Shown piece by piece: positions 2,120 through 58,820 of a DNA stretch of 64,000 bases; the stretch's first letter is position 1, and the number at the start of each line of letters is the position of its first letter. Made by a program: the position numbers and the translations under genes. The notes under the pieces are model-generated. The model made no database searches. It saw only the letters and a program-made list of their open reading frames with translations, and had not been told where the DNA came from. Source of the DNA: Antedon mediterranea (Eukaryota > Echinodermata > Crinoidea > Comatulida > Antedonidae). The stretch covers positions 12,715,001 to 12,779,000 of the forward strand of contig NC_092673.1 in NCBI RefSeq assembly GCF_964355755.1, read 5' to 3'.

Positions 2120-3535
2120 ACCCCCTGTCAAAGAATAATAAACCTGAAGCTCTCAATGACTATAGGCCCGCTGTACCTATGAAATGTTTCGAAAAATTAA
2201 TTAAGAATGAGATTTTAAGTGAGACTGAGAGTCTTGGATCCCTGTCAATTTGCCTACCATTCCAAAAGGGGGGTAGAAGATGCAGTTACAACTTTATTAC
2301 ATAAAATACTTGGTCATGTTGACAGGCCAAATTCGTATGCCAGAGTTTTATTCTTAGATTTTTTGTCCGCTTTTAACACTTTGCAACCTCATATTTTAAT
2401 GGAGAAAATGAATGTCTTGGGTATAAATCCAGCTACTATTTTATGAATCAATGATTTTTTAAAAGATTGGGAACAATTCGTCTGTTTTAATGATAATATT
2501 TCAGAAAAACTTATGTGCAATACTGGTGCACCACAAGGTTGTGTTTTATCTCCTATTTTATTTTCTTTATATACTAATGATTTTAAATGTTCATATGATC
2601 TAGTTTTAACCAAATGCTTTACTGTGAAATACGCTGATGACACCGGTCTAGTTGGCCTGATAAAACATGATGACCCTAAGTCATATTTTGATAACGTCAG
2701 TTATTTTTCTACTTGGTGTTCTAATAACTATCTAAAATTAAATGTTAACAAGACTACAGAAATGATCATTGATTTTAGAAAAGGTAACAAAACACATGAT
2801 AAGCTATGTATATTAAACGATGAAGTGGAAGTTGTTAGTAACTTTAAGTATCTAGGCACAGTAATCGATGATAAACTTAATTGGAAGGAAAACAAGGTAG
2901 TTACCACAAATTGTTATAAACGACTGTACTTTTTGAGAAGATTGAAGAAATTTCATGTGTGCAATAGGATCTTGACTTTATTTTATGAATCTGTTATTTT
3001 ATCTGTTTTAACTTTTAATGCAATAGTTTAGTTCAACAATTTAAACCAGCAATGCAGGAAAAAAGTACAAAGAATAAGTAAATCTGCCAAAAAGATAATA
3101 GGAAATGATATTAAGAAATCAGATGAAGTTGTTAACAACGCACTTACAAATAAACTTAAAGTTATTATGTCAGATGTTAGCCACCCCCTTAACCAGTACA
3201 TTACGTTAAGCCGATCTGGGCGCATTACATATCCTCGCTGGAACACTGAACGCCTACGTAGATCCTTTCTCCCATCTGCTATGAGGCATTTTAATTTAAT
3301 GTGGACAACGATAACTGCAATAAGTATCTTAACTGTATTTTTAACTTAATTTGTACTTTTTGTGTCCTCTTTTAAATTTTTTATATTACATCTTGTTCTC
3401 TGTTTTATGTGATTTTATTCTTTTTTACTGTTTGTGCGACAATGTTTTTAGACAATTTTAATGTGTGTACTTTCAGCCAAAGTTTCAAGCCATTCATGAG
3501 TTTGACAATAAAGTTTATTGAATTAAATTGAAAAC
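2120..3535 (+). pseudogene. 5'-truncated L2/CR1-type non-LTR retrotransposon
   Basis: RT-domain remnant. It starts with LNDYRPAVPMKCFEKLIK, shifts frame near 2235, then reads DPCQFAYHSKRGVEDAV, FLDFLSAFNTLQPHIL, a stop after PATIL, then GAPQGCVLSPILFSLY, the catalytic YADD (VKYADDTGL), and the thumb NNYLKLNVNKTTEMIIDFRK. The C-terminal region continues to about 3350. The 3' end GACAATAAAGTTTATTGAAT near 3507 resembles the short-repeat tails of L2-type elements. It lies in an intron between two Ig exons, in sense orientation. The endonuclease region is missing. Confidence 0.85.
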
Positions 3536-3620
3536 TTAATTTTTTATTTCATTTCGGTTGCTTTCATTTCTAAATTTGTTTTTATCTGTATTAAATTATT
3601 AATTGTTGTGTCTATTACAG

Positions 3621-3941
3621 CTACATCATTGGTGATGATACACACTGTTGTCAAGTCTTTGGCAGGAGGAGAGGCAAAAATTCATTACATTATATTACCA
3701 ATAAGTTACCATATCAAACAAATTGTTTTTCAAAAACTTGAATCAAATACATGGAAGACAGTTGCTGATAATTCAACACGTACTGGCAAATATTGTATAA
3801 CAATGGAAAACAACTTGAAAGGCTTTCTGAACATTGTTGACGTTCAAACAACTGATGCTGGTGAATATCGGTGCCATTGTTTGACAGGGGGAAATTATAT
3901 TTACTCAGAAATATGTAAATTAGAAGTAGTACAACTAGGCT
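3621..3941 (+). CDS. Divergent Ig V-type domain exon
   Basis: Exon of 321 bp, phase 1-1. Acceptor is TCTATTACAG before 3621 and donor is GTAAGT after 3941. Its second half is clearly Ig: FLNIVDVQTTDAGEYRCHC, then a last strand EICKLEVVQL. The first half is unusual. Where a B-strand cysteine and core tryptophan are expected, the reading is AKIHYIILP and IVFQKLES, so neither residue is present. The canonical disulfide cannot form as usual; KYCITM supplies another cysteine. Expected role is an extracellular domain of the same multi-Ig protein as its neighbours. Confidence 0.68.
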
Positions 3942-3959
3942 GTAAGTATAGTAGATAAC

Positions 3960-4800: not shown

Positions 4801-4973
4801 ATGTTGTAGAAATTTACTAATTGCACATATTGCTTTTATGCATAATTCATTTTGAAATAGTGAATTTCAGCACAATAGTGTGTAGGCCTATCTACTGCAG
4901 ATTATTGATTAAAACTTAATGAACATTGTCAATATTGGCCTAATCTATCTTATCTCTTTATTATGTTTTATAG

Positions 4974-5303
4974 ACATGGATAATTCTTTTGCAACACATG
5001 GAGAAAAAGCAATTTTAACTTGCAAGTATAAAACTAAGGATGAAAAAATTTGTGTTAGTTGGTATACGAAGACTAATGATGGAAACAAATTGATATGGTC
5101 TTCTGACGAATCGCAAAAGACAGAAGCAATGCAAGAAAGATGCAAGGCAACCTGTGATGTTAATGGAACATGCTTAGAGTTTGAGAAAGTAGCTTTAACT
5201 GATGCTGGAGAGTACGTGTGTAAACTTAGTAAGAATGTGATTTCTGAAGATGGTACGAATAGCAAAATAGCAAACACAATAACAGCAAACCTATGTGTAC
5301 AAT
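4974..5303 (+). CDS. Ig V-type domain exon, duplicated copy 1
   Basis: Complete V-type Ig domain: AILTCKYKTKDE with the B-strand Cys, VSWYTKTNDGN with core Trp, LEFEKVALTDAGEYVCKL with the second Cys, and final strand ANTITANLCVQ. Extra cysteines in ERCKATCDVNGTC suggest a second disulfide. Acceptor TTATGTTTTATAG precedes 4974 and GTAAGT follows 5303; phase 1-1, 330 bp. The frame is also open upstream to ATG 4919, giving a hydrophobic MNIVNIGLIYLISLLCF that could act as a signal peptide if this were a first exon. However, that stretch also makes a standard acceptor tract and sits at the same place in all three copies. Confidence 0.8.
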
Positions 5304-5584
5304 GTAAGTACATTTTTGTTAAGCTTTTTCTTTCTGAAAATTTCACAAATTTTAATGAAAATGCAATTAATCATTAATTTTTTTAAACACTGTGTTCGCC
5401 ACTGTGTCTGCCAAACACTCTGATGTTATTGAGGAGTTTTGAACGTTTGTGATCTATGGGCTCAACACTACCAAGCTCTTTTAAACTGTAAATAATGATG
5501 TCAAATAACTGAATAAATGTGTATGAATGAATTAATAATTGTATATTGATAGTAAAGTTATATATAATACTGTATTACAGTAAT

Positions 5585-5715
5585 AAAAGATACAACAGAC
5601 TGTATAAATAAGCTTTTTAATGGTAAAGCTGCTGGGTTGGATGGTTTGGCAGTCAAACAGCATAAATACGCTAGCAAACGGCTGTTTGTTTTAAGTAATT
5701 GTTTGAAATATATAT
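5585..5715 (+). pseudogene. Non-LTR RT fragment
   Basis: Short translated piece INKLFNGKAAGLDGLAVKQ then KYASKRLFVLSNCLKY. This matches the start of the RT domain in non-LTR elements (KxGKAxGxDGL). No other part of the element is present. It sits in the stretch found only in duplication copy 1, so it probably inserted after, or was lost from, the other copy. Confidence 0.6.
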
Positions 5716-6025
5716 GTTGTGAAAGGTCAAAAGGTCAGGTGAAAGGTTATATGAACAAACGCATACAGGTCTCTCAATCCCGACAACCAATGGTCACAGA
5801 GAGGTAATTTTGGTCACAAATTGTTCAGAAAACAAGCATATTCAGTCTAACAGGATATTTTAGTTAAAAATGAATGGGAATGCTATTTCTGACCTTTGAA
5901 CCACATCAAGAGACATGCGTTCATATATCCGTAACTATTGGTCATGTCAGAGACTGGGAGTCGGTCTGACTCATATTTATATTTGCTTTAAAAAGCATGG
6001 TGAATAGGAGAAATACAGCACATGG

Positions 6026-6509
6026 TGAAAAAAAAAAATTATACAAACAATATATTTTATCACAAAATCCTAATCGCAAACTAACATACACAAAATATAA
6101 CAATATGTTTAATAAGCTTTGCCGCACTGCAAAAAGGAATTATTTTTCTTTACAATTTGACACGGTCAAAGACAATCTTAAAAAAACCTGGTCCATTAGT
6201 AATTAATTCTTCTCCCCTAATAATAAGTCAAGTCGAAACTATCCCAAACAACTTACAATAAATGACAATACCATTACATCTGAAATAGATATTTGTAATC
6301 AATTTAATAAATATTTTTCTCAAATTGGCACTTCACTTTAAATTCAATGCCAGATTCCTTAATTAATCCTAAATCATATCTTCCTGATCCCCTTCTCCAT
6401 TCTTTCTTTATAAATCCTGTAACTGAACATGAAGTGATGATAATTATAAATGATCTTGATCCAAATAAAGGAAGTGGCGATGATAGAGTTACACCATACG
6501 TTATTATTT
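6026..6509 (+). pseudogene. Retroelement A, left part (linker and RT start)
   Basis: 5'-truncated non-LTR element starting within an A-run of the duplicated block. It reads KKLYKQYILSQNPNRKLTY, then LCRTAKRNYFSLQFDTVK, NLKKTWS, FNKYFSQIGTSL and NPVTEHEVMIIINDLDPNKG: the endonuclease-RT linker and first RT block. Stops and frame changes show decay. It is cut at about 6509 by element B and resumes at about 15085. Confidence 0.8.
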
Positions 6510-8246
6510 ATTTCTTCTCTTATTGACGCCTCTAATTGTCCTGACCCGTCTCCTTATCTGTCATCTTGTAACTCTTTCTTTTCTCTTGATGAAGACTTTG
6601 TCCAAACTGAATTAACTTCCACCAATCCCAATACTTCTACCGGACCAGATTTAATTGATGGTAATTTTCTTAAAGCTGCTTCGGCTATTATTGTTCCTCA
6701 TCTTACTGTTATCTTTAATCTCTCTATCAATTCTAATTGCTTTCCCTCTGCCTGGAAAACATCTAAAGTTATTCCTATCTTTAAATCAAGCAAAAGAAAT
6801 GACCTTAACAACTACCGGCCTATCTCTATCCTTCCCCTTTGCTCTAAAATTATTGAAAAATCTATTTCCCAACAAATCTATTCTTACCTTGACTCTAATA
6901 ACTTAATATCTACCTCCCAATCTGGATTTCGTCCCCATCATTCTACTCTCTGCTCTCACCAACACATATGATAACTGGCTTCACAATATCAATAACAAGA
7001 AACTTACTGACACTATCTTTATCGATCTCAAAAAAGCTTTCGACACTATTGACCATAATATTCTTCTAGCTAAATTACCCTACTATGGATTTTCTCCTTC
7101 AACTATCTCTTGGCTCTGATCTTATCTTTCTAATCGCTCTCAACAAATTCTTTTTGAAAAAACTCTTTCTTCCTCTGGTTTTCTTTCTACGACCTTTCAT
7201 CTTCTCTAATGTCTAATAACTCTAATCTACATGTTGACATGTATTTTTTTTTTTTTTTTTTTAAACCAGAAACAACAGCAGAAACAAATCTGCCACTTAC
7301 AGCTTGGTTTAAAGTATGCTGACGATACCATCATCTATTATTCTAACTCCTCTTCTAAACTAATTGAACAGAATCTTAATAATGCTCTAATTCATCTCTC
7401 TACCTGGCTAAAATCTAACACTCAATATTGCAAAAACTAAATCTATGCTCATTGGCTCTTCTCAAAAACTTAAATCTAACTCTATTAACCTTACTCTTAA
7501 TGATTCTCCTATTCAATCTGTTACTTCTCACAAACACATTTCCCTTTGTAAAAAACTCAATTCTATTATCTACTCAAATGTACCTCTAAATTTACCAACA
7601 AATCTTCTCTTCATCTTCTGTACAATTCACTTTTCCTTTCTAGACTTGACTACTGCTGCTCTGTCTGGGGTTCTAAACCTTCTTCTACCACTAAACTTAA
7701 AAAAATCCAGAATAAAGCTATCCGTCTACTACTCGATCTATCTCCCACTACACATCTCTCTCCTCATCACTTTTCCAGTGCTAAGACTCTCCACTTCCAT
7801 GAACGATACCTCTTTCAGCTTGCATGTCTATCTTTCAAGGCTCTACATCACTCTGCTCCACTTACTATCTGTCAGCTTTTAACTAAAGTCACTTCAAACG
7901 GCCGTATGAACACTAGGCAAGTTACTAAAGGAGATCTTCTTATCCCTCATCCTTACCTTGAAATCTTTAAACTTTCTTTTAGTTTCAATGCTCCTTCTTT
8001 CTTTAATTCTACCTTTAAGCATTCGTAATTCTTACAATTTCTTCTCCTTTAAATCTCTTTTGAAATAACACCTGTTTCTCTCTCTCTGATATTATTTCTT
8101 TTTATCCTTCTTTCATTGTTGGCCTACTGTATATTTATATTTATATATATTTATATTTTATATTTACTATTTTTTATATCTTTGTTAATTTTGTATTTTT
8201 ATAGTTTATTTTGTATTTTCTGTTTGTATTGTTTGAGGGTCCCTAA
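6510..8246 (+). pseudogene. Retroelement B, RT to C-terminus
   Basis: CR1/Jockey-group RT with many breaks. It begins before the first RT block (FVQTELTSTNPNTSTGPDLI), then LNNYRPISILPLCSKIIEKS, SGFRPHHST, FIDLKKAFDTIDHNILLAKL, YADDTIIYY and a C-terminal region ending LSFSFNAPSFFNSTFKHS near 8025. A (T)n tract at 7246-7261 replaces part of the palm. The 3' UTR runs to 8246, where Harbinger inserted; the rest is at 15007-15084. Confidence 0.85.
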
Positions 8247-8310
8247 AGGCCAACTCAGACAGCGTCATAAGACGAGGCCCGACGAGGCGTCTTGTCTGGA
8301 CTTGACTCGT
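8247..8310 (+). repeat. Harbinger left terminal inverted repeat
   Basis: Pairs with the right end: both read AGGCCAACTCAGACAGCGTC inward, followed by GACGAGGCCCGACGAG and TCTTGTCTGGAC with small differences. The CpG-rich GACGAG repeats may be transposase binding sites, by analogy with other Harbingers. Confidence 0.93.
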
Positions 8311-8552
8311 CTGTGCTGTCTGATTTGAATCCAGACGAGACGGGTCGTCGTGAGATAACGTCGGGGGTAGTTTTAGGTCGTCGTGAGCATATTAAACATG
8401 TTTAATTTTCACCCGACGGGACGACTCGTTTGTTGGGTATTGACCAATCACAGGCGTTTAAATTATGACGGCAGGTCACGAGGGGAAAAGTTTTTATCGA
8501 AGAGCGCGAAGAAGAAGTAATGTGCTTCGCGGGGATTAATATTTCCATCATC

Positions 8553-11502
8553 ATGGCGGTCAGTGGTGGTGGTGCACGTGAAGAAGATTTATGGTCAGAA
8601 GAGGCCGAGTCTTGCCTTATTGACCTTTGGAGGAATGAAATGTGTCTATATGACACTACCCCCAAAGAGTATAGCAATCGACAGCTTAGGCAAATAAAAG
8701 TAGAAGAATTCGCCGTAATATTAGGAAAAAGTGGTAAGTCCAACAAATAATATTAATAGGCCTAAGGCCCCTCCTAGGCTAGGCTAGGGCGTATCTAGGC
8801 CTAGGCTATGCACAACAGCTATTTTACTAATAATAATATAGCCTAGGCCTAGTGTATGTAGGCCTAGGCCTATTATTAATTATTGCCAAAAATGAATGAC
8901 CCACACTCGACTCACTAGCCTAAACACTTTCCTGCAACAACTCCTAGCCTAGCCTAGGCCTAGAATATTATTAATTAACTAACTAGGCCTAAGCCTAGGC
9001 TAGGCCTAGTTAGGTCCCTATGGCATGCTAGTCTCTAGCCTAGGTTTGGCTAATATTAAATATTAAGCTTGAGACTAGGCCTACCTACTAGACTAGGCTC
9101 TTTTATTACTATACTGTACTGTGCGTAGTGTAGGCCCCTAGACTAAACTAGGAAATTTCATTTTAAAATTTTGTTTAGCAATTATTGCTAATCAAACTGA
9201 TTTTTTAGTCGAGAAACATAGTTTTGTATTGTATTTTTTGCTACACAATTTTAGAAATGTGTAGCAATAAGGTTGTTTTATATAGCTTTTTGCTATGCTA
9301 CACTGGCGAAATTATTCCCTGGGCCTAGTACTAGTTAGTACTAGTAGTAATAGTAAAATATTATTATTATAGGCCTAACTAGCCTACCTAGTAGTAGTAG
9401 CATTAATATATAGATAGTAGGCCTAATATTATGGGCTAGTATTAGCCTAGGCCTAGTAGGCCCTAAAAGTTCCACAAATAAACTAGTCTCTACTACTTTG
9501 TCTTTACTTACTAGGTCTAGCCTAGAGAGAGGCCCCTAGGCATATTATAAATTATCAGCAACATTCACATGAATTCATTCACTTTCATTGGCAAGAAAAA
9601 TAAATAAGCAAAACTGCGCCTCTTATTATATGCCCTATATAGGTAATTTAATTATTAATATTTATTATTTGTATCAATATCATATAATCATATACACAGT
9701 ATATATTCCAAGTAAATTTAAACATTAAATAAACAGTAAAATATGATATAATTTTATTATTAATAATTGTATTTATATTATATACACAGTATACATTCCA
9801 AGTAAAGGTAAAATAAATTGTATAAAATATAATGTAATTTAATTATTAATATTTGTATCAATATCATATATCATATACACAGTATATATTCCAAGTAAAT
9901 GTAAAATAAATGGTAAAAATGGATTGTGATTATATAGATTATTAATATATTATGATTTAATTACCGTATATATATATTTGTATTTTAATAGACATTGAGA
10001 TCAAAAAACATATAAATTCCCTGAGGACCCAATTTATGCGTTACAGAAAGAGCCTGCCTAGTGGGAGAACAGCTAGGCAGCAATGGGTGCTGGAGCGATG
10101 TGACTGGCTTACTCCATACATTAAGCAGAGGGCGTCTCAGTCCACATTAGATGTAAGTAATACTATAGCCTAAAGATGGTTGTATAAAGTAGAGTCCTCA
10201 ATGAGAATACTGTAAAACAAATTGTGAAAATAAAAGGAAGCATAATAGTTGGAATTTCTGTAGCACGTATACAGTATACTGTGTATCTAAATCATTTGGT
10301 CTTGCCATTCAATGGATCCTTCTTTTGATGAAAAGTATGTGGTTAATATTTCTCTCTGTTGCTTGGCAGCAGATGTAAAATTGTTGTGCCTATCAAGTTG
10401 AACAGGCACCATGGATGGTTGCTGTCGCCACTGTCCTTCAACAACATTGTGCGCCCCATTTTCCAGGTCGACAAAACCTGGTGGATTGTAGGCACTATTG
10501 CTTCTTAGCATGTTGTGCAAAGCAGCACATGCCAACACTAACGGTTGAAGGTGTTCCGGCAGTATTTTGATCATCGTCAAGAATACACCAAATTTATTTG
10601 CAAAGATCCCAAAAGCATTCTCAGAAACCCTCCTAGCTCTTGACAGACGATAATTGAATACTCTTTGTTGTTTCGTTAAATGCCTTAGAGGATGTGGCTT
10701 CATAATGTCCTCCCGCAATGGGAATGCATCGTCTGCTACTATCATATATGGAACTGTCGTATTTGTTCCAGGCAATGGACTCGGGGTTGGTACTCCAATT
10801 GCTTTGTTCTTAAGGCCCTTATCCAACGAGCATTTTGAGAACACCCCACCGTCGGATACACGTCCATTTGTACCGAAGTCGACATATAAAAATTTATATG
10901 ATGAATCTACAAGGGCCATCAGTACCAGGCTGAATGAATTTTTGTAATTAAAATATTCCGAGCCTGAATTGGGTGGTGGCCGAATACTGACATGTTTTCC
11001 AACTAGTGCACCCAAACAATTGGGGAAATTCCATTTCATTTGGAACTCTTTTGCTATTCCCATCCATTCTTCAGATGTTGATGGCGTCTGTAAATATGAA
11101 TATAAAAATATGATAAACTTTCTAATAAAAAATAATAATAATACATCATAACTGACTGATCATTGCTTTTTTTTTACAGTTGTCAGATTTAGGATTAGAG
11201 GCAGATCACGATGATGATGTATCCAACATGAGCGAAGAAAACGATGTTAAGACAAAAAAAAGTTCAACAAAACCAACAAAAAGAGAGAGAGACAATACAA
11301 TGAAGAATTGAATTTGATTCGTAATCTTACAACAATATTAGAATCTCCTTCAAACGTAAGCGAAGAAACAGATGCCGATTTACTTTTTTTTCAGTATGTT
11401 ACATCAGAACTTAAACAAATACAAAATAAAAAAACCAAAGCAGTTCTGATGAACAAAATCCAAAATGATATTTTTGAAGTAAAGATAAAAGATCTAGATT
11501 AG
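8553..11502 (+). CDS. MADF-BESS protein of Harbinger (frameshifted)
   Basis: Exons 8553-8733, 9992-10152 and 11180-11502. Start chosen at ATG 8553 (MAVSGGG, context CATCATGG); an upstream in-frame ATG at 8520 has a weaker context. The MADF domain spans the first two exons: EAESCLIDLWRNEMCLYD, NRQLRQIKVEEF, then KKHINSLRTQFMRYRKSL. Exon 3 has an acidic linker and a BESS motif DADLLFFQYVTSELKQIQ. Splices are GTAAGT/TTAATAG (phase 1) and GTAAGT/TTTTACAG (phase 0). In exon 3 the opening frame hits a stop at about 11309, while the BESS part is open in another frame; the switch is likely in an A8 run near 11252-11260. In animal Harbingers such proteins bind DNA and aid the transposase in the nucleus. 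Confidence 0.8.
8757..9560. repeat. TAGGCCTA-rich intronic stretch
   Basis: Lies in the first intron of the MADF gene. Dense with AGGCCTA, CCTAGGC and TAGGCCTA words, many overlapping and palindromic, with no regular period. It contains no coding sequence. Similar but smaller patches occur at 51830-52110, 52450-52640 and 59180-59260. Confidence 0.8.
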
Positions 11503-12197
11503 CTTCAAATAATATATATAATATCAAAATGTACTGTCTAGCCAGTCAAATCCTCACTCATTTTTCCATTTACACTACAGTTTCCTAGTGGATAACAAAT
11601 TAAATTTATAGCCTAGAGTACACAGTAATTTACCTTCATGTTCTTTCAAAACAGAGTATATTGCATTACATGTGTCTGGTACAATTTCACCAATTGTTGT
11701 GGGCCCAACTCTGTATTGATATGACAGACTTTTGTATGTTTCACCTGAAATTTGTTTGACAAATGAATGGTTATTTGCAACTACAGGTGATCAGATTGTT
11801 GGTATACTTGAAAAACCTGAGAAAGGATAAGGGATAGAATAAATTTGGGTTTTTGATGATTTGAACACGTTTACTCACCAGTTGCAATAAAACGAAGCGT
11901 AATCGCTAATCTTTCTCCTGGAGAAATACTCTGGCGCCAGTTGGTGTTTTGGTTCTTTATAATGGGCTTGACCAAACTCAGGAGGTTGTCAAATGTGCCA
12001 GTATCCATCCTTAAAAAATTTCTGTAGGATTCCTGGTCCTGGAGCCGCAGTTCTTGAATCAAATTTCCATATGCTCCTTGTTGCTGTCTTTTGAGGATCC
12101 AGGGCTTGCACCATATTCTGCTGCTTCGTCTTCGCCGCCTTCTTTTTAAAAGCAACAGCAGTAAAACAGCACATGATTTGCGTTTATTTGACACCAT
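10287..12197 (-). CDS. Harbinger DDE transposase (inactive copy)
   Basis: Minus-strand gene; exons 12197-11879 (start MVSNKRKSC), 11744-11634 and 11087-10287. Exon 1 has an Arg-rich stretch and DTGTFDNLLSLVKPII then SPGERLAITLRFIA. Exon 2 has YKSLSYQYRVGPTTIGEIV. Exon 3 has the nuclease core, NCLGALVGKHVSIRPP, then VADDAFPL and RRVSENAFG. The second Asp and the Glu of the DDE triad are present, but the first Asp (normally GAxDGKH) is Val, a GAT to GTT change. By my reading the exon 2-3 join is also out of frame. Donors GTGAGT and GTAAAT and acceptors TTTCAG and TTTACAG are clear. The last exon sits antisense in intron 2 of the MADF gene. Confidence 0.87.
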
Positions 12198-12229
12198 GAT
12201 GTAAATACTGTATATATAAAACAACATTT

Positions 12230-14940
12230 TAAAGAAATTTCATTATTCAGTAAATCTAAGAATTCAGAAAACATCTCAGTAATTCAATAATTGTTGCTGC
12301 CATCAATTTATATTATTTAAAGATATGTATTGATTTTTTCCCATAAAAACATTATATAACATTAAGTTAAAGATGTATTGTCCCTTGAAACACAAAAAAA
12401 TGAAGGTCAAAATATACCGTAAATTTTAATTGGCCCTATCAAAGTAATATTAAAGTTATTCACAAGTCAAAAATTCAAGCCAAAAACAACAATTTTACGT
12501 AATTAACAGCTAAATTAATTGTGTTACATTTTGTCTGGAAAATAGTCGTGAGCGAAAGTAATCAAAGATTTCAAACCATGAGTATGCATTATGCATGATG
12601 CTAATTAGGATTGTTTACAACACTGTTGAGAAGGTGTTTTCACACAGATCGCGAGGAAGTTTTATGATTACGGCATATATACAGAGTAGCCAAACAAGCG
12701 CATTGCATTATAAGATATGTTTTGATCGAAAACTTTGACTGGAAGTCAAAGTTATTTTTTTAACCAAAAAACGTCTGTATTTCAGTTAAATGATTTTTTT
12801 TTTCGACTAATTTTTGGTGAAAGTTAATAACTATTATGATAGTTCAAAATTACCCACTTTTTTTTTCGAAATCTTTTAATTTTAATTTTTGGGGAATTTG
12901 ACAAAGGGACAATACATCTTTAATTAAATGGTTACATTTTGTTTCATCAATATAATCTGATGTATGTTGTGATTTAATATGTAATAACAAATACATGTAG
13001 TAAATAAATAAAAGTGTAATATAATTATGTTTAATTTAAATAATTTAGTTATTTGTTTGTTATTTGTATCACTAGTTAATGAGTTGAGTTTTAGGTTAAC
13101 ATGTCCAAAAAGTTGGTATGGCGCATTGCCACAGTGTGTTAATTTAATGTATTTAATGACGAAATGGAACCACTTACTTTTTGTACATAAAAAAAAAAGT
13201 TAGATCTGGTCATTACCTCTCAACAATGCTTATCAATCGGACATTTTAAATTTAAATTCAATTTTGTATTGAATTGTGTTCAATATTATAAATTTAACTT
13301 GAATTGTATAGACTAGATGGTACGCGAGCGTACCATCTAGGTTGTGCCCACAGATGGTTCTCGAATACATAGTAATTTCAGCGTTTAAAAAACTGGCGAC
13401 TTCAAATGCACATGCAGGACAATAATACATGTTGTTTACAGGAACGAATAAGAAAAAGAAGTTTGTCACAAAATAAGAAACAAACTGAATTTGTGTTTTG
13501 TATGTAACATTTGGGTTGAGGGATGGAGAAGAGGATGGATGCAAAGACGAACAATTTTTAAATATATTCTTTATCGATTTAGTAACGAAATATGAATTGT
13601 TTTCATGTTTTACAAATAATATACCAGTAAACACAGTAAAACATTGCGATTTAATACTTTGTTGAAACTGTCACCGTCATAGTCGATTGAAATAGTACAG
13701 TACATGTAACGATACATCACTAATACGACGTTTATATTTTTTTGAAGTTACATGATTACAAACGTTCTGAAGGAACTGTCAGTAATATATTAAACACCTC
13801 TATTCGGGGAAAATCGTAAATTCGCTTTAATCGTCAATAAATAATTATCTAACTCAACTTAATTAGTAGGCCTAATGGTCAATTGTTTAATAGAGCCAAT
13901 TATGCTACCCACTACCCAACTTGTATTGAAAATTAAGTTGTTTCCTAACCACCAAAGTTGTTCTGCGTTTAGGGCATGTACTGATCATTCATACTGTAGG
14001 CCTGTCCTCTACTGGCTTTACAATGCTACTCATGCCAGGGAGGGTGGTGGTGTTGGTGGTGGTTTAGCTGCAATAATAAAGTTGATTGTACATAATAGAC
14101 GGCAACTGGAAAGGCTAGCTCATTTTGCGTTAAAAAAAAGATTCCACAGATTGGAAAAAAATGTATCGAATTTCTGTTATGACTGTACAGTACTTGTCTT
14201 TACGACACCTGAGGGAATAGACACTTGTGGAACAGAGATTGGAATGTTCCATTTATCGCAGATCAAAACATTTGTATAAACGTATATTAAATCTATCAAA
14301 ATAGTATTTTTTAAAGAAAATCGGCCTGTCTTCAACATTATGATGCTGTACTCGAGCTGATCAACCAGTTTTCAGCTATTAAAAACAATTATCGTAGGAG
14401 GAAATAGGAAAATGCGAAGCATCCTCGCATTATTGTTTGCGGGTATTTTTCAAGTTGGACATCCATTAGACAGTGTATACCACGACCACGAAACACCCCT
14501 ATTTGGGGCAAATCGTTGAACCTAAATTCGTTTTAATTGTCAATAACTAATTATCTAACTCAATTTAATTAGTAAACATGGTTACATCAGATGGTAACTG
14601 ATATTTAGATACTAAACTAATATGCCTACTAAAAGGCCTGGCTAGGGGCATACATGGGCCTACCAACTCTGTACTGACATGGATCCCATATGCCAAGTCT
14701 CAATTATTCAACAAAATATAAGCTTAAATTTTGTTGTTCTTTTTATTAGGTAAAACAAACGGATTTATCGGTTTATTATTAATCAATTAAACTTACTATT
14801 ACTTCCGTGTTTACAAATCATACGAACGTACGTACGTCGTGCATACGCGTTGCATGGTTTGTTGCGTCATCTTGAATTCAACCAATCAGAAGCGCAGGCA
14901 ATATAGTCGCGTCGGGCACGATTATCTGTCGGTAGGACTT
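12230..14940. other. Harbinger interior without a recognised gene
   Basis: No known domain. A 133-residue minus-strand frame at 13233-13634 contains YYCPACAFEV and TICGHNL, which look faintly zinc-binding. A 134-residue plus-strand frame at 13875-14279 contains a Gly-rich stretch and a basic helix (ALKKRFHRLEKNVS). Neither has convincing splice sites or a family I recognise, so both may be chance. The sequence also holds a near-perfect palindrome at 13313-13340. Confidence 0.45.
13313..13340. repeat. 28-bp perfect palindrome with 2-nt centre
   Basis: Arms CTAGATGGTACGC and GCGTACCATCTAG flank GA. Partial matches to the arm appear at about 46970 (CAGATGGTACGC) and 63689 (GACTAGATGG), so it may be the tip of a repeat family rather than unique. 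Confidence 0.9.
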
Positions 14941-14942
14941 TG

Positions 14943-15006
14943 GAAAGACGGGTCCAGACAAGACGTCTCGTCGGGCCTCGTCGTACGACGCTGTCTGAGT
15001 TGGCCT
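14943..15006 (-). repeat. Harbinger right terminal inverted repeat
   Basis: Inverted match of the left end, finishing CGCTGTCTGAGTTGGCCT at 15006, followed by target-site TAA. The outer 20 bp are perfect against the left end. Confidence 0.93.
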
Positions 15007-15084
15007 TAATGATCAGCTTATGCTGAATGGATCACCCTCATAAAATATTGTTGAAATAAAAATAAATTAAATAAATTAAATTCA
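15007..15084 (+). pseudogene. Retroelement B, 3' UTR end and tail
   Basis: Continues element B across the Harbinger insertion: after the TAA, GATCAGCTTATGCTGAATGG, CACCCTCATAAAATATTG and an AAATAAATT-type tail. Such short A/T repeats end many CR1-group elements. The sequence ATTTCT follows at 15084-15089 and also occurs at 6510-6515 at the start of B, so it may be the target duplication. Confidence 0.72.
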
Positions 15085-15212
15085 TTTCTCCATTCATTAT
15101 TAATCACCTTACGTTCTGTATTAATTCATCTTTTTCTTCAGGTAGTTTTCCCAATTATTTAAAGTTAGCAAAAGTTATTCAAATTTTCAAGAAAGGTAGA
15201 CAAGATATACTT
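15085..15212 (+). pseudogene. Retroelement A, right part (RT)
   Basis: An open stretch reads FISPFIINHLTFCINSSFSS, then GSFPNYLKLAKVIQIFKKG. This is the RT block that should follow the text of element A ending at about 6509. It stops at about 15212, where the second copy of the Ig block starts. A is therefore cut at both ends and split by B. Confidence 0.72.
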
Positions 15213-16000
15213 TCAGACCCATTTACTAATTGCATGTATTGTGTTTATGCATAATTCATATTGAAATAGTGAATTTCAGCACAATAGTGTGTAGGCTTAT
15301 CTACTTAATGAACATTGTCAATATTGGCCTAATCTATCTTATCTTTTTATTATGTTTTATAGACATGCTTGATTCTTTTGCAACACATGGAGAAAAAGCA
15401 GTTTTAACTTGTAAGTATGAAACTAAGGATGAAAAAATTGGTGTTAGTTGGTATAAGAAGACTAATGATGGAAACAAATTGATATGGTCTTCTGACGAAT
15501 CACAAAAGACAGAAGCAATGCAAGAAATATGCAAGGCAACCTGTGATGTTAATGGAACATGCTTAGAGTTTGAGAAAGTAGCTTTAACTGATGCTGGAGA
15601 GTACATGTGTAAACTTAGTAAGAATGTGATTTCTGAAGATGGTACGAATAGCAAAATAGCAAACACAATAACAGCAAACCTATGTGTACAATGTAAGTAC
15701 ATTTTTATTAAGCTTTTTCTTTCAATCTCGACAACCAATGGTCACAGAGAGGTAATTTTGGTCACAAATTGTTCAGAAAACAAGCATTCATTCAGTCTAA
15801 TTGGATATTTTAGTTAATAATGAATGGAAATGCTATTTCTGCCCTTTGAACCACATCAAGAGATATGCGTTCATATATTCGTAACTATTGGTCACAGAGA
15901 CTAGCAGTCAGTCGGTCTGACTCATATTTATATTTGCTTTAAAAAGCATGGTGAATAGGAGAAATACAGCACATGGTGAAAAAAAAACGTATAATACTGT
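15213..16000 (+). repeat. Segmental duplication, copy 2
   Basis: Matches 4810-6025: shared upstream intron, Ig exon, donor and the downstream sequence with GACAACCAATGGTCACAGAG and GGTGAATAGGAGAAATACAG. It lacks about 440 bp present in copy 1 and a 19-bp piece of upstream intron. It continues past the A-run where retroelement A interrupts copy 1, so it preserves the sequence without that insertion. Confidence 0.87.
15363..15692 (+). CDS. Ig V-type domain exon, duplicated copy 2
   Basis: Paralogue of 4974-5303: same 330-bp length, phase 1-1, acceptor TATGTTTTATAG and donor GTAAGT. It differs by 11 bases, changing eight codons with replacement and two silently. All key residues stay: VLTCKYETKDE, VSWYKKTNDGN, LTDAGEYMCKL. 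One extra cysteine of copy 1 (KICVSW) is Gly here (KIGVSW). The frame is open, so this copy can be spliced in. It presumably encodes a further domain of the same receptor-like protein. Confidence 0.8.
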
Positions 16001-16154
16001 ACAAGGTTCTTTACGATACAATAAAAATTATTTATTGAAACATTCATTGAAATAGTGAATCTCAGCACAATTGTGTGTAGGCCTATCTACTGCAGATTAT
16101 TGAACATTGTCAATATTGGCCTAATCTATCTTATCTTTTTATTATGTTTTTTAG

Positions 16155-16483
16155 ACACACGTGGAGAAAAGGTGGTTTTAACTTGCAATTATGAAACTAA
16201 GGATGAAGAAATTAGTTGGTGGCACCATCGAGAGTGTTTAAGGAAAATATCTGAAACAGTGCCGCTAAACCAGCAACCAGCAACTCCTGCTTCATCTAAT
16301 CTTGCACCATCATATACATCACCTACAGCCTCTGAACGACTGGCAATAGTAGAAGCATTGCTGGGGACAGAGAAATTAAAGCTCTACAACCGGCGATATG
16401 ACAACGCCTATGATTGTGATGATGCCGAGTACACTAAGTGGAAGGAGCCGAAGTCCGACGCAATATCAGAATATTTCCTCTAA
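16155..16483 (+). pseudogene. Broken third Ig exon fused to transposon ORF
   Basis: The exon starts like the other two copies (acceptor TATGTTTTTTAG, phase 1, then RGEKVVLTCNYETKDEEISW). After about 22 codons, near 16218, the Ig sequence stops and an unrelated frame follows: HHRECLRKISETVPLNQQ and onwards to a stop at 16481. The second Cys and most of the domain are missing, so it cannot fold as Ig. The join is in frame, giving a chimeric reading of up to about 110 residues from the exon start. Confidence 0.75.
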
Positions 16484-42973: not shown

Positions 42974-45183
42974 TTGTCAAATTTGCATACGGTACATCTC
43001 AATGCAGCATTCATCATACTTTCAATACGCTGTCTCAGAACCAATGTTTTTATAGCTCTACTTTTGTTGTTTTGTATTGTTTTATTTTACTATATTACTA
43101 TCCTTACTGCAATGCTTAATAACAATTCCAGTATTAAAACTACACGTATTAAACGTAATTTTCGCAAAGAGCGTAAACCATGGATCACTGTCGGTCTGAT
43201 TAAATCAATTGGTACCAGAAATAAGCTCTATACTGCCTACCTCAAATCTAAGAAACAGACCGATAAGGACAAATACATAAAATATAGAAACAAACTAACT
43301 AATTTACTTCGCATAGCAAATAAAGAGTATTATGCCTCAAAATTCAACCAGTATACCAACAATATTCATAAAACCTGGCGATCAATGGAATCTTAGGTAA
43401 AAATAAAAAACAAAACCAACCCTCTCACTTTTTTAAAAACAATTGTAAAATTACTAATCCCGGACTTATTGCTGAACAATTTAATGATTATTTTATTAAT
43501 ATTGGGAACAACCTTGCGCAAAGTATTTCATATAATGGCAACTCAAATTTTAAATCATTTCTTAATCATTCCTTTATTTCAAACTCTCTCTATTTAACTC
43601 CAATAACGGAAACTGAAATTGTTGATATAATCTTAAAACTTAGGGACAATAAGAGTCCAGGATCTGATGGATTTTCCAATCAAGTTATTAAAAACATCAT
43701 AAACTTTATATCCAAGCCTTTAGTCCATATTTTTAACCTATCATTTCAAACTGGAATTTTTCCAGACCTTTTAAAAATTGCCAAAGTAATTCCTATTTTC
43801 AAAAAAGGCGATCCCTATTACTTTGAAAATTACAGACCGATTTCCCTGCTGCCTTGCCTGTCCAAGGTTTTAGAACGCCTGATCTACAGACTTTATACTT
43901 TTTTTTCTAAATACGATATCCTCTTTAAGCATCAGTACGGTTTTAGAAAAGCTTTTTCCACTGACCTTGCAATAACTGATCTCTATGATAAACTGACTTC
44001 TGCACTTTCAAACAATGAACACACCATTGGTATTTTTCTTGACTTGAGTAAGGCTTTTGACACTATCAATCATGAGATACTTCTTCACAAACTTCAGCAC
44101 TATGGTGTCAGAGGCCTTCCTCTTAAACTCTTAAAAAGCTACCTTACCAGTCGCCAACAATTCACTGCTTTCCTCCCTTTTGACTCCAAACTATCCTCCA
44201 TTCTATGCGGCGTTCCGCAAGGCTCCATACTTGGTCCCTTATTATTTCTAACATATATAAACGATCTCCCCAACTGTTCCAAATTACTCAAATTTATACT
44301 TTATGCGGATGACACTAATATTATTTATTCTCATAAAAATGATCAAATTTTAGTTAATACAATTAATAGTGAATTACGCAAAGTTTCTGATTGGTTCCAA
44401 ATCAATAAATTATCGCTAAATGAATCCAAATCAAATTATATTATATTTAAACATAAAAACAAAAAATCCATCTCTCAAAACTTAAAAGTTTTAATTAATG
44501 ACAAGGTAATCACACGTGTTGAGGAAACCAAATTTCTTGGCGTCTCCATTGACTCAAAATTATCTTGGAAACATCATATCAATACAATCTGCAACACAAT
44601 TGCGAGAAACACTGGTATGATGAACAAATTAAAGTACACACTTCCATCAAACATTTTATTTAAGTTATATAATACTTTAATTCTTCCGTACATATCATAC
44701 TGCAACATTGCCTGGGCCGTTACACTTGGCAAGTTCAGCACTTTATGCCCCTGGACTAGTTTCGAAACTACCAATATTGACCGAATTTTTAAATTGCAAA
44801 AACGTGCAATCCGAATCTGTTCAGGGGCATCATTCAGATCTCATTCAAAACACTTATTTTTTAACTTCAAATCTCTCAACGTCTTTGATGTTAATAAACT
44901 TCAAACTGCATTATTCATGTACCGACTTACAAAGAATCTACTTCCGACCCACCTATGTTCACTCTTTACTAAACCTTCTGATACCCATACACATTTTACC
45001 CGTTTTTCCAATACTAATGTATACACTGTTAAAAACTGCGACTCACACATTAGACGTCATTCAATACTTTATACCGGACCTAAACTTTGGGAAAGTCTTT
45101 CACATTCACTGATAAAGAAACCTTCACTTTTTAGTTTTAAAATTACATATAAGCAATCTCTAATCCAAGCATATGATGAATAA
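42974..45183 (+). pseudogene. Retrotransposon ORF2 remnant: RT without endonuclease
   Basis: Coding resumes in the endonuclease-RT linker (RKERKPWITVGLIKSIGTRN). A single frameshift near 43380 separates it from the main frame, open from 43381 to the stop at 45183. RT blocks: DNKSPGSDGFSNQVIK, NYRPISLLPCLSKVLERLIY, FLDLSKAFDTINHEILLHKL, GVPQGSILGPLLFLTYINDL, ILYADDTNIIYS, LNESKSNYIIFK, TKFLGVSIDSKLSWKHH. The C-terminal domain ends LIQAYDE. The whole endonuclease is missing between about 42770 and 43090. Without it, target-primed insertion would be impaired. Confidence 0.87.
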
Positions 45184-55234: not shown

Positions 55235-58200
55235 ATAATAAATGAAAACTTATATAGCGCCGGTATCCTCCACCCATGTGGCGCTCATGGCGCTTTGTGC
55301 ATTAACAACGTGCGAGAACATCAGCGAATAACGACGTCTTTAGGTTGGTCTTGAAACTGTTTAGACTAGTTGAGCATTTAACTGTTGCTGGTAAGCTGTT
55401 CCATACACTTGCGGCCGCAACGTAAAAAGATCTCTGACCCCACTGATTTTTCGCTCTACGCTCTTGAAGAAGGTTTTGTGACAATGATCGTAGGCCTCTG
55501 CGGGATGATTCGTAACGATCCACAAGGTCAGATAAATAAGCAGGAGCACTGTCATTTAGGATCTTGAATACAAACAACGCAAGTTTGTACTTAATACGTT
55601 GTTGAACAGGCAACCAATGCAAATCCATCAGGACAGGAGTTATGTGAGCGTTTGATTTTGTATAAGTTACAATTCTAGCTGCCATATTTTGCAAGCGCTG
55701 CAAACGTTGTATTTGAGATTTTGGTATGCCAAACAACAAGGCATTACCAATGTCAATTTTAGAAGTGACAAATGAGTGTACAATCAATTCAGCTGTTTTC
55801 TTGTTAAGATTACCGCGAATACGACCAAGGTTCCTAATCGATATGCATGCCGCTTTGGATACAGTTGTTATTTGTGCTTCCATAGTGAGATTACTATCCA
55901 GCATGATTCTCAGATTCCGGACCACCGATGAGGGAGCGATGTTAGAGTTTCCGATTCTGATATGTGTGATGTTGATTTTGGAGATGTTACATTTAGACCC
56001 GACGATAATAAACTCTGTCTTTCCATCATTCAACTTTAGGTAATTTGTTGTCATCCAATTGCGAACATCTTCTATACAGGCTTCCATCTTACTGATTGCT
56101 GCAGCAACATCCCTTTGCACTGGATTTACTGACACATAAATCTGTGTATCATCTGCATAGAAATGGAAATGTAGACTGTGTTTGCGAATAATGTCACCAA
56201 GGGGAAGCGTATAAATGGAAAACTGGCCAGGCCCAATTACTGACCCCTGTGGTACACCATATTCCAGGCAAGCTTCATCTGAGAATGCATCATTGATACA
56301 GACTAGCTGACGTCTTCCTGTAAGATATGACTGGAACCAGTTAAGAGCAACACCATTTATGCCAATGCGATTTCTCAGACGGGTTATCAGTCTTTGGTGA
56401 TCAACTGTATCAAACGCTGCTGACAAATCCAACAACACCAATAGCGTTATTTTCCCATCATTCATTCCTTGTAACAAATCATTCTGTACCTTTAAAAGGG
56501 AACTCTCCGTGCTATGACATGCACGATATGCCGACTGGTAATTCTCATTTAAATTATGCTTTTGAAGATATGGAGTAATGCGTGATGTCACTACACGCTC
56601 CAGAGTCTTTCCAAGAAAAAAAAGATTCGACACCGGGCGGTAATTTTTCAGCGTGTTATGATCCAAGTTTTGCTTTTTTATTAAAGGACGAACGTGAGCA
56701 ATTTTCAGTTCATCTGGCACTATGCCGGTATTAAGAGAATGGTTAATGATTTCCGTTATTATTGGAACGACTGCGTCTATACACTTCTTCAGTATAGAAG
56801 TAGGAACTGGATCTAACCTGCATGATTTTGTTGGTGATTTCATCAGAATGTTGCGGATCTCATCTTGAGATGCTGGTGTAAATGTTGTGAGATGCTGATG
56901 AACAGCTGTCACAGGCTCATTAAATGACATGTCATCAATCTTGAAGTCGTCTCTGATGATCTTGATCTTGTCTGTGAAAAACTGACAGAACCTGTTCGCA
57001 AGATCAAAGTCAGAAAGACTATCTGGGAGAGGTGATACCTGGCGATGATGAAGGAGTTGGTTAACAATTTTAAAAAGTCCTTTCTGATCTGCTGCATGTT
57101 CTTCACACAAGCCAATGTAGTAGTTGGCCTTTGACTTTCTTACCATGGAATTTACATTCCTCTTCTGTGCAATGTAAGCTTGACGATCTATTTCCAGATG
57201 AGAGATTCTCCATTTCTTTTCAAGCTTACGCTTTGTTCTTTTCTCAGCATAGATGTCACTGTTATACCAACTAGTATTTGGACGGACCTTTACTGTTCTC
57301 TTTTTCGGTGGTGCGTGTTTGTCAAGAAGTTCACTCAAAGTGGTGACATATAGTCGTACTTTACTTGATAAATCAAGATTTGAGAGTGAAGTTCCGAGAT
57401 CAGACTGTGTGATATCTTTACAAAATGTCTCAAAATTTATAGCATTCCAATGACGAGTTTCGATGGATTTAGTGATTACGGGTGGCTTCTTGATAAGGAG
57501 ATTACATGTGATTGCATAGTGATCTGATATACCATCAATGACATTAAGGTTTGAGAAAACAGGAGGATCAGATGAACGAGTGATCAGCAAGTCTAATGTA
57601 TGACCATGTCGGTGTGTAGGTGTAGACACATGCTGTTGAAGACTGCTTGCTACAAGTAGATTCCGAAAATGAATTGCATCTGCATCATTTGGCATATCCA
57701 CATGGATGTTAAAGTCTCCAACGAATAGTATGGGAGCCGGCTTCAATACATAGTGATCAACCAAAGTTGAGAATTCTTCAGTGAAAACATTTAGACTGCA
57801 ACCCGTTGATTTGCTTTGAGGACGATATACTGCTACGAGGAAAACTGAGGATGCATTGCTGACTATTTCCACATTTAGCAGTTCAAATGATTTTGGTAAT
57901 AATCCCGTGTCATAACATTTAACCGCTATGCTTTCCTTGTAAAGAAGTGCAACTCCACCACCTCTTTTAGTACCAGCACGGGGAGCATGTTTGAGAGAGT
58001 ATCCGTTGGGTGTAATATTTCCTATAACTGATGTGTCTTCTGGTTTAAGCCACGTTTCCGAAAGGGCAACAACATCCAGATTATGTTCGATAACGAAATC
58101 CACAAATTCTGTTGTTTTGTTCCGAACGGATCTTGTATTAATACTGCAAAATTTAATATTGTTTTTAGATAAGAGAGAGTTTGATGATAAGTCCGGAAAT

Positions 58201-58245
58201 GATAGATTGTTTTTAGTGTGTTTGTCACGCCCAGCTCTTGTACCA
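55235..58245 (-). mobile_element. CR1/L2-group non-LTR retrotransposon
   Basis: Minus-strand element. The 5' end is truncated near 58235-58250, where the duplicated exon text begins. Body is a single endonuclease-RT frame. The 3' end reads GGCGCTATATAAGTTTTCAT then TTATTATTATTAC at about 55225-55262, a tail type typical of this group. It separates the candidate coiled-coil exons at 53961-54520 from the exon pair at 58239 and 58821. Confidence 0.9.
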
Positions 58246-58295
58246 CCAAAAAAGGAGGTTTCTACAACAGATGTCAATACTTCTGATGATGACAT
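55302..58295 (-). CDS. Endonuclease-RT polyprotein, open 997-residue frame
   Basis: An uninterrupted frame, rare in this window. Endonuclease of the APE type at about residues 48-265: FCSINTRSVRNKT, VVALSETWLKPED, GGGVALLYKE, VAVYRPQSKS, LFVGDFNIHVD near residue 191, and ISDHYAITCN. Linker with RKLEKKWRISHLEIDRQAY. RT at about 510-790: NYRPVSNLFFLGKTLERVV, SAYRACHSTESSLLK, LVLLDLSAAFDTVDHQRL, GVPQGSVIGPGQFSIYTLPL and FYADDTQIYV with YADD at residue 712. The C-terminal domain has LHWLPVQQRIKYKLALFVFK. GPGQFSIY replaces the usual GPLLFxIY. The ATG and roughly the first 15-18 residues come from flanking antisense sequence, so the natural start is lost. Confidence 0.92.
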   Translation of the reverse strand: MSSSEVLTSVVETSFFGGTRAGRDKHTKNNLSFPDLSSNSLLSKNNIKFCSINTRSVRNKTTEFVDFVIEHNLDVVALSETWLKPEDTSVIGNITPNGYSLKHAPRAGTKRGGGVALLYKESIAVKCYDTGLLPKSFELLNVEIVSNASSVFLVAVYRPQSKSTGCSLNVFTEEFSTLVDHYVLKPAPILFVGDFNIHVDMPNDADAIHFRNLLVASSLQQHVSTPTHRHGHTLDLLITRSSDPPVFSNLNVIDGISDHYAITCNLLIKKPPVITKSIETRHWNAINFETFCKDITQSDLGTSLSNLDLSSKVRLYVTTLSELLDKHAPPKKRTVKVRPNTSWYNSDIYAEKRTKRKLEKKWRISHLEIDRQAYIAQKRNVNSMVRKSKANYYIGLCEEHAADQKGLFKIVNQLLHHRQVSPLPDSLSDFDLANRFCQFFTDKIKIIRDDFKIDDMSFNEPVTAVHQHLTTFTPASQDEIRNILMKSPTKSCRLDPVPTSILKKCIDAVVPIITEIINHSLNTGIVPDELKIAHVRPLIKKQNLDHNTLKNYRPVSNLFFLGKTLERVVTSRITPYLQKHNLNENYQSAYRACHSTESSLLKVQNDLLQGMNDGKITLLVLLDLSAAFDTVDHQRLITRLRNRIGINGVALNWFQSYLTGRRQLVCINDAFSDEACLEYGVPQGSVIGPGQFSIYTLPLGDIIRKHSLHFHFYADDTQIYVSVNPVQRDVAAAISKMEACIEDVRNWMTTNYLKLNDGKTEFIIVGSKCNISKINITHIRIGNSNIAPSSVVRNLRIMLDSNLTMEAQITTVSKAACISIRNLGRIRGNLNKKTAELIVHSFVTSKIDIGNALLFGIPKSQIQRLQRLQNMAARIVTYTKSNAHITPVLMDLHWLPVQQRIKYKLALFVFKILNDSAPAYLSDLVDRYESSRRGLRSLSQNLLQERRAKNQWGQRSFYVAAASVWNSLPATVKCSTSLNSFKTNLKTSLFADVLARC

Positions 58296-58312
58296 ACCGA
58301 CAGAGTCAGCAG
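58239..58312 (+). CDS. Small exon, first of a duplicated pair
   Basis: Reads VPPKKEVSTTDVNTSDDDIP then TESAG, with donor GTCAGT at 58313. Acidic Ser/Thr-rich linker. Its 5' part is truncated by the antisense retrotransposon. It resembles the exon at 58821-58928 and may belong with the coiled-coil exons at 53769-54520. Function unknown. Confidence 0.4.
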
Positions 58313-58820
58313 GTCAGTAACTTTAACAATACAATGACATGTTATGTAGTTATTTACTAGGTTAGAGTAGAGGCCGCCTCTAGGCCTATCCCTATGTTTT
58401 TATGGGCCCGATCTGGGAGGTAGCAATGTCGTATTCGATTGGGACATTTATCGTTGAGTATAGTTTTTTTTGTTTTGATTTACCTTTCCGTACTTATAAC
58501 ACAATTGTGTGCGTTGAGATTGTTCTTAACAAAAAAGTTTGCATTGTTAACGTTTTCTATTTCACTGGACCACCTCTAGTTACGTTCAGTATAACCCCTA
58601 TTAAGGCTTCAGGAACAAAATAATGTCCCCTTGGCAGGGGTTTTTTACTGGAAAAAAAAGAAATTATTTTGATATGTAAAATAAATAATTGATCTGGAAT
58701 CATAAAATAAAAAATTGAAATTAGCAGTCCCTTTTAAACAATAAATGTATCTAATTATTTCTATGATAATAGTTTAAATTGCACATTTTCTGATTACAAC
58801 ATAGACTCTGTTTGTCTAGT

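Follow-up and report, generated by a model that had tools for sequence, protein, structure and literature searches.

How did the DNA between two copies of an Ig-type exon come to be filled with transposable elements (TEs), and in which order did they arrive? Comparison with genome copies of the individual elements revealed a nest of TEs, one inside another, between two such exons in the window (the whole stretch of 64,000 nucleotides that was analysed). The nest was confirmed as real and as having one layer more than first described. The earlier note had read three layers, a Harbinger element within a retroelement B within a retroelement A, and this interpretation was partly supported: Harbinger does lie in B and B in A, but a Helitron in the Harbinger makes a fourth layer. 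Neither this Helitron, nor a MITE also located in the Harbinger, nor the lack of both LINE ends in A had been described in that first reading. All comparisons rest on one genome assembly.

We propose, with a probability of about 0.78, that the whole succession was as follows. An Ig exon block would have been tandemly duplicated and an internal piece of about 610 bp of LINE A joined in at the junction thus formed, probably as a patch during repair. A 5'-truncated LINE B would have been inserted into this piece by target-primed reverse transcription. Afterwards, a two-gene PIF/Harbinger element with the MITE already aboard would have entered the B 3' UTR at a TAA, and a non-autonomous Helitron would have integrated between A and T in the Harbinger. 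Finally, the 5' end of this Helitron would have been lost together with the adjoining Harbinger DNA. In this succession the stretch between the tandem Ig exons would have grown by successive independent events.

LINE B and the Harbinger element that interrupts it

The PIF/Harbinger DNA transposon occupied positions 8247–15006 on the plus strand, as delimited by terminal inverted repeats (TIRs) of about 55 bp and by a full-length relative (L019). Its inverted repeats, at 8246–8301 and 14952–15007, were 56 nt long and 95% complementary. Comparison with empty sites in B copies identified a TAA target-site duplication, with the left copy at 8244–8246 and the right copy at 15007–15009. In the genome search, the matches of B copies to 6510–8246 and to 15005–15225 abutted with an overlap of 3 bp, which is the TAA. 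Nine B loci were given to the empty-site alignment and eight of them aligned over the site, the match of the remaining one (L015) ending short of it. Seven of these eight read GGGTCCCTAATGATCAGC, with no insert, and the other one (L022) had a small deletion. The Harbinger was therefore inserted into B at this TAA, as these empty sites show, and the claim that it splits the B 3' UTR there held. The joined 3' UTR, the presence of which elsewhere in the genome had been proposed as a check, was indeed found.

The assignment to PIF/Harbinger relied on a 3-bp TWA duplication, the TIRs, a DDE_Tnp_4 transposase and a Myb/SANT-like second protein; the L019 relative is flanked by TTA on both sides. The element is of the two-gene type. 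The MADF (Myb/SANT-like) gene was located at 8553–10152 on the plus strand, with exon pieces at 8553–8738 and 9994–10152. Pfam MADF_DNA_bdg was matched above the cut-off by the first exon (3.7e-05) and below it by the second (0.0039). The transposase gene, at 10287–12239 on the minus strand, comprised a piece at 10287–11159 matching Pfam DDE_Tnp_4 at 2.3e-25 and an open piece at 11871–12239. The latter, which gave no Pfam family above the cut-off, we take to be the N-terminal part of the transposase by its position and resemblance. Besides L019, two further relatives (L020 and L021) were used for comparison. A tandem repeat was also observed within the Harbinger, at 9643–9948, and L019 has more units of it. 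When the best 40 of 253 first-look candidates from a search with the right end were scored, several matches were found to lie near one another in inverted orientation, two by two, a pattern expected of short non-autonomous copies.

LINE B itself, defined by its genome copies, lay on the plus strand in two parts. The first (6507–8246) was 5'-truncated and contained reverse transcriptase remnants and the 3' UTR up to the Harbinger; the second (15010–15078) contained the end of the 3' UTR and an A-rich tail, the limit of which is ambiguous with respect to A. The window piece matched Pfam RVT_1 at 3.8e-06, below the curated cut-off, whereas the B copy L011 did so at 1e-24. The 5' truncation was evident from five of the eight loci tested, which reached the start of B in the window and continued upstream, and A-rich 3' tails were present in all eight aligned copies.

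The interruption of A by B was demonstrated by intact copies of A. Its left part was located at 6039–6506 on the plus strand, with 24 other matches listed and the best at 95%, and its right part at 15079–15215 on the same strand. In eight of the nine other copies listed for the right part, this was joined directly to the left part with a 4-bp overlap (ATTA), for instance at C4:17224975-17225453 followed by 17225450-17225590. The text at 15079–15215 and the left part are thus of one family, and the eight uninterrupted copies show that B splits A; the borders, placed at 6509 and 15085 in the earlier note, were found instead at about 6506 and about 15075–15079. That B arrived by target-primed reverse transcription is suggested by its anatomy.

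The border itself was not sharp. Where intact A reads GTTATTAAATTGATTTCTCC, the window reads GTTATTATTTATTTCTTCTC and the B copy L011 reads GTTATTATTAAGCTTTCTTCTC. At the edge, intact A copies read GTTATTAAATTGATTTCT, and four of the five B loci reaching it read aagcTTTCTTCTC, the fifth (L022) being a variant; in L011, the closest B copy, even GTTATTATT ahead of the edge matched the window. Since the letters at the edge fit either element, the 5' border between A and B is ambiguous over about 6500–6511. The ATTTCT reported at both edges is present, but it is not a clean target-site duplication and its 5' copy also fits the B family. B may have a target-site duplication as long as about 14 bp, provided that the 5' copy of it has changed. 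The reading of ATTTCT as a simple duplication of the B target site was rejected as unproven, TTTCT occurring in B copies.

The MITE and the Helitron within the Harbinger

The MITE, of 549 bp, was located at 12371–12919. It was flanked by TTAA at 12367–12370 and 12920–12923 and bounded by inverted repeats at 12360–12386 and 12904–12930. Among the Harbinger relatives, this site was empty in L021, occupied in L020 and marked by a remnant in L019. For this reason the MITE is probably older than the Harbinger copy of the window, and would have entered its lineage before that copy arose.

The additional layer was a repeat of about 1.28 kb at 13313–14595 on the minus strand, with its 3' end (a hairpin and CTAG) at 13313. 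This repeat is high-copy: 6034 first-look candidates were obtained with the whole Harbinger as query and 2664 when the query was just a part of the repeat, the best 40 being scored in each case. Helitrons are characterized by TC...CTRR ends, a hairpin near the CTRR and insertion between A and T. In nine other copies of the repeat (a slash marks its edge), the left end was A/CTAG in all nine and the right end AGA/T in seven, with the hairpin next to the CTAG; the two exceptions at the right end, L023 and L025, resembled each other. In addition, the repeat interrupted one arm of an inverted repeat at L031, the other arm of which offers the empty site. By these ends, the hairpin and the insertion between A and T, we take the repeat to be a non-autonomous Helitron.

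That the Helitron interrupts the Harbinger was clear from the relatives: all three have about 225–260 bp of Harbinger sequence at that place and no Helitron, and in the window the Helitron replaces about 225–240 bp of Harbinger. As hallmarks the window copy retained the 3' end and the hairpin only. Its 5' end was gone along with the adjoining Harbinger, with five unmatched bases at 14596–14600, a pattern pointing to a deletion that would have removed both. The left junction between Helitron and Harbinger was found once in the genome, at up to 3 mismatches and outside withheld stretches and stretches of N. This single occurrence, from which the timing of the Helitron step is taken, favours an insertion after the arrival of the Harbinger.

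The Helitron could also have been cargo, already aboard the Harbinger when this jumped into B. The private divergence of the two elements was similar (substitutions found only in the window copy were 14/1256 for the Helitron and 28/2672 for the Harbinger), so that the clock would order neither of them first, and the MITE shows that the Harbinger lineage did carry passengers. However, with the junction found only here and the Helitron missing from every relative compared, we consider the cargo explanation unlikely. A later Helitron insertion is retained in the proposed succession. It is very improbable that the nest is partly an artefact of assembly, in which unrelated repeat copies were joined: high-copy repeats are difficult to assemble, but the junctions were exact to the base at the TAA, TTAA and A/T sites.

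The LINE A fragment and the Ig blocks

Two Ig blocks enclose A, as the earlier note had claimed. Block 1 (4812–6036, plus strand) contained a V-set exon at about 4974–5304 with flanking intron and matched Pfam V-set at 6.5e-08; block 2 (15216–15987, plus strand) contained an Ig exon at about 15363–15693, also with flanking intron, and matched Pfam ig at 3.6e-08 and V-set at 8.1e-08. The nest thus lies between Ig exons that share one strand, and its location is probably intronic. The distance of about 0.6 kb previously given for the two blocks without the insertions was also correct, about 0.6 kb of A remaining when B and everything inside it are left out of account. Upstream, at 3527–3955, there was a V-set match just below the cut-off, and block 2 was followed by a third, broken Ig block with a weak Ig match below the cut-off. 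This third block (16042–16483) was observed to match the others until about 16216 and to continue as an unrelated open frame.

The two blocks differed at 29 of 761 aligned bases, distributed as 18/430 in noncoding sequence and 11/331 in the exon. The noncoding divergence was 2.1% per copy, with an interval of 1.25–3.27% which overlaps that of A (1.52–4.26%). Within error, the Ig duplication is about as old as A, and therefore both may be one event. The earlier idea of an Ig duplication together with A is compatible with these dates but unproven. Among the best 40 of 625 candidates, no Ig pair without A was found elsewhere, and two Ig-exon matches at 72% lay outside the window.

Block 2 lacked 20 bp and about 435 bp (5335–5769) that are present in block 1. 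The longer stretch was probably lost by block 2, because it seems to contain an RT-like scrap, and a high-copy repeat begins in it. The scrap is small and was recognized by eye, and the repeat runs from 5714 to 5967. Copies of this repeat were seen as inverted pairs in several places, separated by a few kb at most; at L031 it lies inside 1.1-kb inverted arms, one of them being that interrupted by the Helitron.

The identity of A as a retroelement insertion was not supported. LINE A is a real family, and its intact copy L002 encodes endonuclease and reverse transcriptase domains as well as more open frame. The window contained about 610 bp from the middle of this LINE, with neither of its ends; the stretch gave no Pfam family and ended close to the start of the RVT_1 match in L002. 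When relatives were aligned with L002, all five that reached the left edge of the fragment continued past it, and all eight did so at the right edge. Three others (L008, L009 and L010) did not reach the left edge and matched L002 only from 1846, 1942 and 1947 on, respectively. The left edge of the fragment lay within an A-run with which the first Ig block also ends. The right edge had ATTT in common with the start of the next block, and immediately ahead of it the fragment lacks 7 bp (AATTACA) of LINE A. Shared letters of at least 4 bases are weak evidence in AT-rich sequence. Neither a LINE tail nor a target-site duplication was observed at the edges of the fragment. Lacking these features and both ends, A does not seem to fit an insertion by its own LINE machinery, and a repair patch appears likelier. 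Regarding other LINE copies, L007 (C5:18970000-18971150) was noted as a LINE A copy with a short insertion of its own, a CTGAAA-type repeat, within the left part. Two long open frames that look by eye like LINE endonuclease/RT were also noted in the window, at 55302–58313 (minus strand, 1003 aa) and 43372–45183 (plus strand, 603 aa), and are perhaps young copies.

The patch could have arisen in a single germline repair event, in which the Ig exon block was tandemly duplicated and LINE sequence was copied to seal the junction, this patch hosting afterwards the three other elements. We propose this tentatively, at somewhat less than even odds. If true, a new Ig exon and a growing intron would both go back to one templated-insertion duplication. 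A LINE A of ordinary type could instead have inserted between Ig blocks that were already duplicated, with later deletions taking its ends and the spacer. Copies of this family that start part-way do exist, namely the three mentioned above, and the bases missing from block 2 indicate that deletions seem to happen here. However, such trimming requires extra deletions that stopped at the edges of the Ig blocks, and neither a tail nor a target-site duplication of A was seen. The position of the edges does not by itself favour either explanation, as a spacer that had been replaced would stop at the same places. The data fit both explanations, and we regard the trimmed insertion as a doubtful though serious alternative to a patch laid down with the duplication.

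Dating of the layers and comparison with known systems

The order of the layers was also examined by counting private substitutions in the window copies. Relatives within 7% and with more than 200 aligned bases were used, and at least 3 letters per column and a majority of at least 75% were required. The relatives were seven for A, eight for B, three for the Harbinger and eight for the Helitron. By this rule L009 and L010 were dropped for A and L022 for B, and the A tree was built without L008–L010. Besides the Harbinger and Helitron counts given above, 16/605 private substitutions were found in A and 33/1649 in B. Fisher tests gave p=0.22 for A>B, p=0.008 for B>Harbinger and p=0.004 for A>Harbinger, and the one-sided trend over these three layers gave p=0.0004. 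Maximum likelihood terminal branches were 0.0277 for A, 0.0238 for B, 0.0108 for the Harbinger and 0.0113 for the Helitron. With another counting rule the values were 15/605 for A, 24/1534 for B and 17/2006, 10/384 and 3/395 for the Harbinger segments. A Helitron count of 50/1376 was rejected, unrelated flanks being included in that alignment; after trimming it became the value used here.

The Harbinger rate was uneven, with 17/1990 in the transposase core and 11/682 in the other two segments. Set against these other segments, the excess was not significant for B (p=0.33) or for A (p=0.14), and the trend over the outer three layers leans on the transposase core. The left segment (8247–9440), covered by L019 as single relative, was excluded from the dating; it differed from L019 at 45/1186 positions. 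The other counting rule also gave 3/55 for the left terminal repeat, a value that was left out too. As A and B did not differ significantly, the Harbinger segments are uneven and the relatives are few, the clock agrees with the nesting order in direction and does not settle it. The order A, B and Harbinger given in the earlier note is thus supported by the nesting, by the uninterrupted copies elsewhere and by the direction of the private substitutions, but the agreement of the substitutions fails for some parts of the Harbinger.

All parts of the nest are of known kinds and no new kind of system is involved; nothing seen points to a function beyond a longer stretch. It is an ordinary sort of genome history, here unusually legible: a LINE fragment, a LINE, a Harbinger and a Helitron form a readable column, each breaking the previous one, beside an Ig exon duplication that can be dated. 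It may be useful for comparing the times of activity of these TE families in this genome. The locus is also a candidate for an exon duplication with a templated patch.

Nested TE insertions are a well-known pattern. As in them, the nesting here reveals the order, each older element being broken by a younger one; unlike them, the outermost layer looks not like an insertion by its own machinery but like a LINE fragment truncated at both ends and located at an exon duplication. The Harbinger agrees with PIF/Harbinger elements in its TAA duplication, TIRs, DDE_Tnp_4 transposase and Myb/SANT-like second gene, and differs in carrying a MITE and, in the window copy, a Helitron. The Helitron family, as seen in nine copies, has the TC...CTAG ends, hairpin and insertion between A and T of non-autonomous Helitrons, whereas the window copy lacks the 5' end. 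Finally, human class 2 templated sequence insertions (TSIPs) are described as having no target-site duplication or poly(A) and as showing microhomology or microdeletion at the junctions (PMC5110952). Compared with that description, fragment A is similar in its lack of target-site duplication and poly(A) and in the shared letters and small deletion at its edges, and differs in being flanked on each side by a copy of a tandemly repeated exon block and in being known from one assembly. By analogy with these insertions, fragment A would fit a class 2-like repair patch (PMC5110952).
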